A DNA stretch of 64,000 nt from Sialis fuliginosa (taxonomy: Eukaryota > Arthropoda > Insecta > Megaloptera > Sialidae). Numbering within the stretch: position 1 is the first letter of the stretch; each line of letters opens with the position of its first letter. The notes below the pieces were generated by a model, which made no database searches, was not told the DNA's origin, and was given only the letters and a program-made list of their open reading frames with translations. The stretch covers positions 11,753,001 to 11,817,000 of the forward strand of contig OY540817.1 of the NCBI GenBank assembly GCA_961205875.1, given 5' to 3'. A program made the position numbers and the translations under genes. This document shows, in pieces, positions 7,354 to 57,009 of this stretch.

Positions 7354-7367
7354 ACCAATATTTCATT

Positions 7368-7456
7368 TAAACTAACTAAAAATATACACCTTAACCACAA
7401 TAAACAATGTCACTCGACACGTATTTCGACTTCACAGGAAGTCCTCATCCAGTAAT
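7368..7456 (-). mobile_element. Short hammerhead-bearing retroelement copy with 14-bp target duplications
   Basis: On the minus strand this reads CTGGATGA (7452-7445), then GACTTC, a CTGT loop, GAAGTC, GAAA (7427-7424), a minimal TACGTG stem III and GTC (to 7416), followed by GAGTGACATTG. Apart from a disrupted first box, this is the hammerhead core order. Compared with 9010-9155, a deletion between two GATG motifs explains CTGGATGA. The unit lies between direct repeats ACCAATATTTCATT at 7354-7367 and 7457-7470, as expected from target-primed insertion. The host element is probably a Penelope-like or retrozyme-type retroelement, by inference. Confidence 0.7.
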
Positions 7457-7886
7457 ACCAATATTTCATTATTTTATCAATATAAGATAAAATAAAAAAA
7501 ACGTCTCACATTCATAGGACATGAATCATATTTTTCTTGATAGCTGCAACTTGTAGATAATGTACGTAGCAGTGTATACAATAAATGACTATTGCGTAAT
7601 ATTTAATTGAGGTAATTTCTTCAGCAGATGTACTAAATTTTAATTGCTAGTTCTAGCTTAATTGTGTATTATTTGTCAGCTGCAGTAGTTTTAAATGCGT
7701 GCCATTTTTTATGCATTATGTTGGTGTATCTATTTTTAAGAAAAAAAAATGTAATAAGTTATTTATTATAGGTATATATACGCAGAGCCGTACTAGCTAC
7801 CGAGGGACCCTCAATACGTGTAATTCCGTTAAAATCTGGAGTTCGAATTTTTTCATGATCACTATATTTTATTTATACAGTATGTA

Positions 7887-8275: not shown

Positions 8276-9009
8276 CATTTCATGTATGCACCTATAAAAT
8301 TATTTAAACTTCAGACACCTTAGTGACTTTTGGTTCATTCTGTATATATTATGATTATATGTATATGACGGGTTTCTTTTGTTTTGTGTAGTATAATTAG
8401 TTACAATTTACTAGGTTGATTTATTAACGCTAAATCAATTTGTAATTGGTCTCAATCAATCACAGCAAGTGATGAATATATTAGTGGGTTAGATATTAGT
8501 TAATGTGTGTCCAGAATAAATAATTGTGCGCGTATTAAACATTTATAGGAAGGGTCTATCGACATGTTCTCTTTATGGTAACACATATTAATTATTGAAG
8601 GCGAACAGAATTTCCAAAACTGTCGAATTCTATCAATATTGTGAGTCTTAAAATCTAAACTGACAAACAAAATAAAAATAATTTATTGACGTATTTTGAG
8701 CTGTTACTAGTAATTTAATATTGATATTTAACAGAGTTTCCAAAATTATTATTGTAGAATCTGTTGAGTTTAATTTATTAAAATTTTACAAAATAAAATA
8801 ATAACCTTAAACCACCTTTCATTGAAATTTTTTTAATCAGCGTCCACGATAATTCACAATCATAGAAACGAAATTTCCTAGAGGGTTTTCTCTATCGGAT
8901 GATACAAGGAAATTAACCAGATAAATTCCCAATGGCTGTTTGAAAATAATATATGTTATTTTGTTGTATGTTTAAATACTTAAACTAAAATTATATACTT
9001 AAACTAAAT
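8276..9009. other. AT-rich intronic sequence, nothing recognised
   Basis: No TIR pair, repeat copy or meaningful frame was found. Confidence 0.5.
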
Positions 9010-9155
9010 CTTACTGGATGGAACTGTTAGGCTCCTGATGAGGACTTCTAGTGAAGTCGACACACGTGTCGAGTGACATTGTTTATTGTGGTTAAGGTGT
9101 ATATTTTTAGTTAAAGTGACTAAGAAACCACAGTTTCTCCGTTTTTCCAGTAGTA
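9010..9155 (+). ncRNA. Hammerhead-ribozyme-like motif in a palindromic retroelement (copy 2)
   Basis: The core is CTGATGA at 9035-9041. Stem II is GACTTC (9043-9048) with GAAGTC (9053-9058) closing a TAGT loop. GACA at 9059-9062 replaces the usual GAAA. C9063, loop ACGT and G9068 form a one-pair stem III, then TC (9069-9070) would be followed by cleavage before G9071. CTC at 9032-9034 pairs GAG at 9071-9073 to start stem I. The 3' side continues GACATTG, TTGTGGTTAAGG and ends TTTTCCAGTAGTA, the inverse of the start of the 55.4-kb copy. The changed A14 position suggests it is now inactive. One extra G sits between CTGATGA and stem II. Confidence 0.65.
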
Positions 9156-9196
9156 TCTTTAAATAATTTGAACTTTTGTGCCCACAATTTCCACAT

Positions 9197-42812: not shown

Positions 42813-42876
42813 AATACTTCTGAGATTTCAAAGAACACGTTGGTGCAGGTTTAATCAAAATCGGTCCAGTAGTTTT

Positions 42877-42960
42877 AAGTTACTTAAACTAAAATTATAT
42901 TTTTTTAGTTTAAGTAACTAAGGAACCACAGTTTATACGTTTTCCAGTAGTTTTAAAAAT
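42877..42960 (+). repeat. Hammerhead-family hairpin that has lost its core
   Basis: AAGTTACTTAAACTAAAA and TTTTAGTTTAAGTAACT form a near-perfect hairpin, followed by AAGGAACCACAGTTTATACG and TTTTCCAGTAGT, the 3' end of the 9010-9155 element. The CTGATGA...GAAA centre is missing, so this looks like a deletion derivative. Confidence 0.65.
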
Positions 42961-54712: not shown

Positions 54713-55407
54713 ACCTCGTCATATACTTTTTAGTTTTTTTGTTAGTTTCTGTTTATTGTTTTTAATTTCTTTTTTCACGTTTCGCTGTTATTGATTTTTA
54801 ATTTCTTATTTTCTAAGTCGGGGACAAGACAAAAAAAAGACCAAATGTTAAAAAAAATCTTAAATAACTCTCCACGTTTTATTACCCCAAAGTACTTACT
54901 AAACATTTTTTATTTCTTGTACTTTTTCTCTAAAGTTGATGATTTCTGAGTAAAAAATTCTTGAAAGTTAAAAAATCTCTCGAATTATTTTGTTAGATAT
55001 CTTTGAAAGTTAAGGTTGTTTAAAAAAATAAAATAAAAAAATAAAAATTACTGTTCGATTACCCCCTCACAACCAAACATGAGATAAAAATCTGTAACAC
55101 AAAAACACCACCCTGTATGTGATACGTACAAGAGTATTTAGTTATAAAGGTAGAAAAACAAAATGATCCTTGTTATATACTTGCATGTTAGTATCACCTA
55201 GATCGTCCCTAATGGCTAATGTCTGAGGCAACCCTTGCAACCCCTTCTAAATAAATAAATATAGCACACGTCCGCAAACATACATATCTACAAATTGAAC
55301 CTACAATAAAAATTAAGTATTTATCGTTTTCTTTATTTTCATCTCAGGGCACTCAACACTTTGACAGGGCTGAATCTAGTTAAAGTTTTGTATTTATGTA
55401 TGATCTT
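54713..55407. other. AT-rich intronic sequence, nothing recognised
   Basis: No repeat family copy or gene-like frame recognised. Confidence 0.45.
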
Positions 55408-55592
55408 ACTACTGGAAAACGGAGAAACTGTAGTTGCTTAGTCACTTAAACTAAATAAATACACCTTAACCACAAGAATACAATGTCTCATAGATTGTTA
55501 GGTTCCTGACTCCTGATGATAACTTCTTGTGAAGTCGAAGCACGTGTCGAGTGACATTGTTTTCTTGTGGTTAAGGTTTATTTATTTAGTTT
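55408..55592 (+). ncRNA. Hammerhead-ribozyme-like motif at the tip of a long hairpin (copy 3)
   Basis: The core is CTGATGA at 55513-55519. Stem II is ACTTC (55522-55526), TTGT, GAAGT (55531-55535). GAAG (55537-55540) stands for GAAA. C55541, loop ACGT and G55546 form stem III, then TC with cleavage predicted after 55548. ACTC (55509-55512) pairs GAGT (55549-55552). Beyond an internal loop, CAATGTC pairs GACATTG, and CTTAACCACAAGA and AAACTAAATAAAT pair with TCTTGTGGTTAAG and ATTTATTTAGTTT, extending stem I to about 40 pairs. The 5' end TACTACTGGAAAACGGAGAA is the inverse of the 3' end of the 9-kb copy, so an intact element is an almost complete palindrome with the ribozyme at its tip. Confidence 0.65.
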
Positions 55593-57009
55593 CAATGTAT
55601 GACCTTCTCACAACTTTTGTTGTAAGGAAATTATTGTTCTCAAACCATACAAATATCCAATATTTATAAGAGATAAAATTCGCCGATGCGATTCACAGTT
55701 ATGCTATCTATTTAACCAACCCCAAAAAATATAATTGTCCAAAGAATATAGAGATTTCGTCGTAATGCATTTCACATTAACATTACATTAATATTTGAAA
55801 AAGTGTCATCTGTTAAAACACCTAATAATCGGAATAAAAGCGCTGTGTAAACGTACTCTATGTCTTTATTTTAAGAAGGTATCTTAAATTGTCAGTTAAG
55901 GGTTCTGATTGATCAAATCTACAATTCATCTCTGACTATCTATTGTTTGTGAAACCGGGCATAAATAGTACTGAAGAAACGTGGTCTTTAATGCTATCAG
56001 ATAATTTGAAGTTGGCAACAAAAGTTAACATAAATACAGAAATAAATTGATATTATTAGTTAGTACATGCAAAAAAATAAAATCCTATTACTCTTATACG
56101 TTTTTTGATGAATAAATACAAAAATGCTGTTTTCATAATTAATTTTAAGAAGTCATGTATAACATAAAACTATAAATGAAATTGAAAGCGTTTATTGATC
56201 TGGTTGAATTTGATGACGATAAAAAACAATTTATTTATGTATGAAAGATAAGAAAGGGGGAAGCAGTGAAAGCTTGGGGTCCGAGTGACACTATTTTTCC
56301 ACTTCATAAAAAAATCAGTAGCGGAAGGGTGTGCGACTGGCAGCTTTTACTAAAATTGCACAAGGGCATTTCTGTTATTAAATGTTAAACATCGCTATTT
56401 CGCAACGTAAACTTTCGGGTTGACGTATTAGAGAAAATATGATAATTCCGAATATCTCATCAAAGGCTTTTATTTACATAAAACATACAAACTGACAAAC
56501 ACACATACAGAAATCAGTGCCGTATCGTTATTTAAATTAAATATAACTGTATAAATGGTTTTGAAAATTTTGATTTTATTAAATGTATTTTAATATGTAT
56601 AAGCTATGAATTAAATTAGTAATAAGTTTTAAAATGTAGTGAAGTTATTTTTATGGTTTTATAACAGATAACAATATAATTATAAATAATAAATCTGTCA
56701 AGTATATGCGCAGTGCTTCATCGTGCTAAATTCATCAAATGTAGTTAATTATAGAACAATTTTAATAAAAACCGATAAAGAATACAGATGAACTGCCTGC
56801 CATTAGTCAACCATTTAATTTTCATACAATTTTATTAAAAAATATTAATCAAACATTTTTCTTAATACGTGCCTAGATATTTTTTCGTATATTTTTAATT
56901 TTTTGACAATTTCAATCTAAATCTAATTTTTTTTGATTCCAACAAACGTTGTAGATTTATATTATAGGAAATTGAATGCTATAAAATTTGTCATCCCTCC
57001 CCTTACACA
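55593..57009. other. AT-rich intronic sequence, nothing recognised
   Basis: No repeat family copy or gene-like frame recognised. Confidence 0.45.

Follow-up and report, generated by a model that had tools for sequence, protein, structure and literature searches.

A hammerhead-bearing palindrome in the genome of Sialis fuliginosa as a probable self-inverted insertion of a Penelope-like leader

Introduction

At 55.4 kb in a stretch of 64,000 nucleotides from Sialis fuliginosa (contig OY540817.1, positions 11,753,001 to 11,817,000; hereafter the window), a short palindrome carries a hammerhead-ribozyme-like core. A preliminary description had taken it for a separate small retroelement with a hairpin RNA capped by a ribozyme, and the locus raises the question of whether such a hairpin is itself a mobile RNA or the product of some other element's insertion. 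Rather than an independent ribozyme element, the palindrome is most likely a doubled, inverted piece of a Penelope leader with a hammerhead motif, and its construction offers a hint of how Penelope-type elements insert into chromosomes.

Inverted leaders, the tail and the hammerhead are already known in Penelope elements, and Cervera and de la Pena are said to have been the first to report hammerheads in them. In twin priming of LINEs, which leads to 5' inversions, the second strand also primes and the inverted segment lies inside one target duplication. According to the excerpts cited here, PAc, the Penelope protein of Anolis, cleaves each of the two strands, extends both, and uses two internal start sites, the interval between them being the tail; PAc hammerhead mutants insert equally well in vitro, the strands did not differ in start site, and a coupling of the two sites is not mentioned in these excerpts (PMC11167929). 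For Pen2a of Adineta vaga, the cited part of the source gives inverted leaders with a tail on one and discusses self-priming (PMC3846280). Inverted pLTRs and short 3' extensions are mentioned in the excerpt of another study (PMC8969392), and retrozymes are reported in a further excerpt that names Penelope elements as their likely helper (PMC7229834).

Results

Copies of the palindrome in the window

Four copies lie in the window. Signed positions refer to a leader unit, U, and are counted from its predicted cleavage site; sites 1 and 2 are the putative start sites of reverse transcription.

Copy A (55.4 kb): about 55407-55594, the extent being corrected from the preliminary description
Copy A, tail arm: 55407..55487, minus strand, antisense leader from +86 (tail end) to +5
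Copy A, no-tail arm: 55510..55592, plus strand, sense leader from -39 to +44 with the hammerhead-like core
Copy A, left target-site duplication: 55396..55406, 11 bp, one mismatch to the right one
Copy A, right target-site duplication: 55595..55605, 11 bp
Copy B (9.0 kb): 8979..9152, plus strand, short stub followed by sense leader
Copy B, duplication: 8966-8978 / 9153-9165, one mismatch
Copy C (7.4 kb): 7368..7456, minus strand, antisense leader without tail, ending near site 1
Copy C, duplication: 7354-7367 / 7457-7470, 14 bp
Copy D (42.9 kb): 42879..42951, plus strand, short inverted insertion without core

In copy A, CTGATGA (55513-55519), stem II (AACTTC/GAAGTC), GAAG, CACGTG, TC and GAGT follow each other between inverted-repeat flanks in the hammerhead order first described; cleavage is predicted after 55548, and the core departs from the canonical form in GAAG and in altered bases at stem II. 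The tail arm aligns to U with 91% identity, and the no-tail arm ends near site 1. The statement that the copies at 7.4, 9.0 and 55.4 kb each have a core change is borne out, copy B being broken to GACA and copy C showing CTGGATGA, and copy D is added to them as a fourth. Copies B and C are strongly lopsided, one arm being a short stub. In copy B this stub is antisense and without tail (about 8979-9004, 85% match), and the sense leader runs from -52 to +86 with the tail (CTGATGA at 9035-9041), while in copy C we read the opposite side as an 8-nt stub resembling the tail end (CCAGTAAT). The arms of copy D, which lacks the hammerhead, end early, near +31, with the no-tail arm on the left and the tail arm on the right; the direct repeat CCAGTAGTTTTAA is found at 42866-42878 / 42944-42956, and the repeat start coincides with the tail end. 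As read here, with the 8-nt stub taken for the tail of copy C, all four copies obey a one-tail rule, i.e., the tail is on exactly one arm. The window also contains a 181-bp tandem repeat at 1669-2015 (1.9 copies, 99% matches).

The hammerhead core across the genome

The 392-Mb assembly (20 contigs, the window sitting in contig C9) was searched on both strands with a 36-nt core pattern (CTGATGAGGACTTCTTGTGAAGTCGAAACACGTGTC), allowing up to three mismatches, and with the reversed pattern as control. The core was found at 1,891 places (941 + 950) and the control at none (0 + 0), an abundance far beyond chance; the 100 places listed of these 1,891 match the core exactly. A canonical core, obtained at first by combining the best bases of the window copies, turns out to be the common genomic form. 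The extra base before stem II is indeed present, but it belongs to the common form of the family (CTGATGA-G-GACTTC) and is no defect of the window copies. CUGAUGA, GAAA and NUH follow in order with stems I-III, and the intact core of many genomic copies supports the proposed hammerhead motif of type I, in which stem III is tiny.

The Rfam type I model, RF00163, aligns to near-consensus copies, throughout the core in one of them (L079), where it is the only family reported, but with 17.7 bits it does not reach the gathering cut-off of 34, and the Hammerhead_HH10 model attains 24.9 of 75 bits in L002. Since the family aligns below both cut-offs, no Rfam match is obtained at the gathering score across the window. 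Loose-threshold matches to the palindrome were mostly to unrelated microRNA models, which long hairpins commonly draw, and were discarded. In minimum-energy folds of the leader, stem II forms and hammerhead stems I and III do not. Self-cleavage of the predicted ribozyme is uncertain because of the two-base-pair stem III and the extra base at stem II.

Paired direct ribozymes are the exception, with one tandem array of four units among the 100 listed core places of 1,891, whereas the eight opposite-strand core pairs among these 100 are all head-to-head. The four cores of this array (L061, C1:39235500-39237500) are spaced by 176 bp with a spacer foreign to the leader, and it looks like a local tandem amplification around one insertion.

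The unit adjoins a Penelope reverse transcriptase frame

Thirty copies were aligned, and 120 loci were then mapped onto one unit, U. It consists of TCAGTC, which we take to be initiator-like, the hammerhead, a body (GAGTGACATTG...AGTTTAAG), and an optional tail of ~39 nt ending in TTTTTCCAGTAGTA; in palindromic copies an antisense unit comes first and a sense unit second. At L033, the end of a frame lies just upstream of the unit, and L126 contains an open frame of 854 codons (stop to stop, taken as it stands without edits) with a Pfam match to RVT_1 (E 6e-15). The unit of L126 begins nine bases past the stop of this frame, is 92% identical to U over 124 nt, single and non-inverted, and ends near site 1; in our reading, TCGCTATATTG is present at either end of this insertion. 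The nearby Penelope-type reverse transcriptase for which the preliminary description had proposed to look is thus found, and the link drawn there between the hammerhead and Penelope-like elements holds. The frame is assigned to the Penelope type because of its likeness to a second frame of this type (31% identity over 124 aa of the C-terminal part) and because of the pLTR layout. In the 854-codon frame, GIY-YIG gives no Pfam match at E 0.01, although the letters GIY..YIG are visible and the frame of the relative matches PF01541; a PDB search with the 854-codon frame gave no match at E 0.01. The relative (L064 / L125, C4:31453000-31459000) is a more distant Penelope frame with a GIY-YIG hit, split into two overlapping frames, and neither CTGATGA nor CTGACGA occurs in the 6 kb around it.

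Ahead of the first ATG in the L126 frame lies a stretch resembling the tail (81% over 32 nt). The order hammerhead, body, tail and frame would be that of the complete leader, as pieced together from L126 and the short copies; no single locus among those read combines the first three with the start of the frame. At the 5' end of L126, what looks like a stub of the tail is joined to the tail, which would be the same one-tail rule, and the long hairpin there (z -5.2), considered as a native RNA hairpin, is probably an inverted junction instead. Judged by these sequences, the unit is the predicted leader (pseudo-LTR) of a Penelope-like retrotransposon. A 43-aa C-terminal peptide gave 150 scored matching places of 250 candidates, and neighbouring places within 8 kb are head-to-head in 15 cases, tandem in four, and tail-to-tail in none. 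Five copies of a Penelope C-terminus at C10:3223936-3253527, regularly spaced by about 7.37 kb, are a tandem array of a larger unit.

Inverted insertions carry the tail on one arm

The first sample comprised 86 insertions from the first 100 listed exact-core places, namely L031-L060 without L042 and L058, which are the same insertions as L041 and L057, and L065-L122. The other 14 places were eight second hits of the same insertions, the four-unit array, and L005 and L029, fetched earlier by similarity. Left out of the tail count were L001-L030, for which the query had one tail, the array L061, and the query-ranked L123 and L124. This sample required an exact core, so that every copy was bound to have one long arm, and a second sample of 20 copies was chosen by the tail arm.

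A script called 56 of the 86 insertions inverted, all of them head-to-head; eight had one end unclassed, and the 48 with both ends classed divided into 46 with one tail, two with none, and none with both. Manual re-reading of the unclear copies and of the 30 simple ones revealed a second arm in nine of the latter, ending at the two sites in eight (L033, L038, L043, L066, L068, L071, L086, and L116) and cut short to a 15-nt piece in L049, which brings the inverted insertions to 65/86. In 58 of these 65 the tail is on exactly one arm and the other arm ends at site 1 (L048 and L111, included here, have a deletion inside the tail), and in none is it on both. The remainder consists of two copies with a partial tail (L077 and L121), one with a tail on neither arm and without target repeat (L074), and four with an arm cut short (L049, L083, L106, and L115); in L106 one arm starts within the hammerhead. 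With partial and cut-short copies set aside, 58/59 follow the one-tail rule, compared with about half under independent choice (binomial p 2e-16). Among the 21 simple copies the two sites are used about equally: 11 lack the tail and 10 have it. L070, which opens with a fold-back of 6 nt, was counted as simple.

In the second sample, nine of 20 copies are inverted; the other arm ends at site 1 in eight and is cut short near +31 in L127, and no tail was found on the other arm in any of the nine. A weak 21-nt antisense tail match 85 bases upstream of L146 is taken for chance. The tail-arm pattern occurs at 754 places with up to two mismatches, and among the 100 listed no two exact tail-arm places lie within 400 bases of each other, a partial test in which both arms must match exactly.

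These counts bear on self-priming, in which a cDNA would fold back at its 3' end and copy itself into an inverted repeat. Inverted copies are common, short overlaps occur at their junctions, and the order is head-to-head, all of which would suit such a process, and the cited part of the Adineta study favours it for the Penelope copies there, with an antisense template (PMC3846280). However, fold-back of a tail-bearing cDNA is expected to copy the tail into both arms, which is seen in 0/65, and in most inverted copies the end of the tail-less arm falls no more than a few nt from one site, so that we consider self-priming improbable.

Target duplications, shared variants, and 5' ends

Flanking repeats with a score of at least 9 were found for 44/86 copies, compared with 2/600 mispaired flanks, and 42/86 copies have no target repeat at this threshold. 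Among the 44 repeats, 23 are 12 bp and nine are 13 bp long, and they are 81% AT, compared with 69% in the flanks. In 39 of the 56 copies that the script called inverted, both arms lie within one duplication, and the palindrome therefore arose in one integration. This, together with the single, non-inverted source leader, does not fit the separate retroelement with a ribozyme-capped hairpin RNA that had been proposed. Minor variants are common to both arms in 38/48 informative cells, compared with 3.8/80 per shuffle for random arm pairs (71 copies and five variable columns, with L001-L030 among the candidates). Across all 28 columns, 41 differences are shared by the arms and 81 are private, and thus the arms are not kept alike by conversion.

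The 5' ends cluster at the initiator-like TCAGTC and not at the ribozyme cleavage site. Among 92 arms (46 copies), 44 end at -60..-52, 12 beyond, 25 inside the hammerhead, four at -3..+4, and seven further 3'. A peak at the cleavage site was looked for and rejected (4/92 arms, and 0/20 tail arms in the second sample); tail arms in the similarity-ranked L001-L030 do lie near this site, a biased set, as the query's own tail arm starts at +5. The position of the 5' ends argues that most insertions would derive from RNA uncleaved by the hammerhead. Junction overlaps of at least 3 nt occur in 15/51 cases, compared with 6% expected. The tail arm is shorter than the other in 16 copies, longer in 15, and equal in 15 (Wilcoxon p 0.36), and the prediction that the tail cDNA is shorter if both polymerases share one RNA, the polymerase behind it trailing, was not borne out.

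An independent non-LTR retrozyme, i.e., a small hammerhead RNA that would cleave, circularise, and be reverse transcribed with palindromes as by-products, might be expected from the type I motif, the short AT-rich repeat, the 1,891 core matches, and the 176-bp array of four units, and such repeats are reported in insects in the excerpt cited (PMC7229834). Instead of tandem multimers of a 150-450 bp monomer, there is the single array among the 100 listed places of 1,891, with a spacer foreign to the unit, and opposite-strand pairs are exclusively head-to-head; the 5' ends show no peak where cleavage is predicted, and the unit adjoins a Penelope frame. We regard a retrozyme as unlikely, slightly more so than self-priming. 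A MITE-like DNA transposon that acquired a ribozyme would account for a short palindrome with target duplications but is very improbable, as symmetric terminal inverted repeats are absent from these copies (the tail is one-sided and the centre variable), inner breakpoints differ between copies, non-inverted copies exist, and the unit adjoins a reverse transcriptase frame.

Discussion

The mini-element is probably a solo self-inverted insertion of a Penelope-like leader with a type I hammerhead motif, generated by two-end priming with one start site per end, a reading to which we assign a probability of roughly 0.78. Inverted leaders of which one has a tail occur here together with a target duplication, as in Penelope-like elements. 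The leader RNA would start near TCAGTC, at about -56 from the predicted cleavage site, and comprise the hammerhead and a body of ~47 nt up to reverse-transcription start site 1, beyond which a ~39-nt tail with a short hairpin would extend to start site 2, immediately ahead of the frame's first ATG. The Penelope protein, to which we ascribe two-end priming, may make staggered cuts in the target, about 12 bp apart on the two strands; reverse transcription would be primed from both 3' ends, with site 1 as the start of one cDNA and site 2 as that of the other, and both would run toward the 5' end of the RNA. The cDNAs would then be linked, in many cases across a few overlapping nucleotides, so that the two arms stand head-to-head and only one of them bears a tail. 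The template would be mostly uncleaved RNA, transcription presumably starting at the leader, and hammerhead cleavage would seem dispensable for these insertions. Two-end priming with one site per end would explain the head-to-head order, the ~12-bp duplication, and the defined outer ends, and likewise the variable centre, the overlaps at the joint, and the one-tail rule. The hairpin is best explained as an integration product and not as a mobile RNA.

In a more specific version, which we hold only tentatively at somewhat less than even odds, one Penelope RNA would serve both broken ends, each start site being used once per inverted insertion and the tail marking the site-2 end; the inverted leader would be a normal product made from uncleaved RNA, and the hammerhead would act elsewhere. 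Shared variants and the one-tail rule favour one RNA rather than two from the same source, and the lack of a length difference between tail arms and the others lends no support to the single-RNA version.

With Penelope/Poseidon elements (Pen2a and PAc), as far as the excerpts cited describe them, the present family shares the reverse transcriptase frame, head-to-head inverted leaders, short target duplications, and a tail of about 30-40 nt on one inverted leader (PMC3846280, PMC11167929), and with PAc in particular a leader hammerhead, a pair of internal start sites, and target sites rich in AT. In contrast to those descriptions, inverted leader insertions are numerous here (65/86 sampled, some of them belonging to longer Penelope copies), counts are given for the tail rule, and the position of start site 2 is apparently just before the first ATG and not inside the frame. 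Metazoan non-LTR retrozymes, in the part of the source cited (PMC7229834), likewise have a type I hammerhead within a short repeat rich in AT, in genomes where Penelope elements are present too, but here tandem arrangement is exceptional among the listed places and 5' ends lie at a transcript-like start. The difference from twin priming of LINEs is that here the arms copy the same RNA stretch twice, from two fixed sites about 39 nt apart. Among open-licence PMC papers, consulted mostly as listed entries, we found no report of a counted one-tail rule or of a coupling of two start sites, nor of a large family made up of short inverted leader insertions.

The 1,891 core-bearing places, many of them short bounded insertions, are a record of the integration reaction. 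The stagger of about 12 bp and the two start sites can be read from them, as can the one-tail rule, the template variants common to both arms, and 5' ends that are for the most part uncleaved. The one-tail rule, the noteworthy part of the case, is a sharp test between two-end priming and self-priming. The family thereby bears on how Penelope elements integrate, on the reason for inverted leaders with an optional tail, and on the role of the hammerhead.
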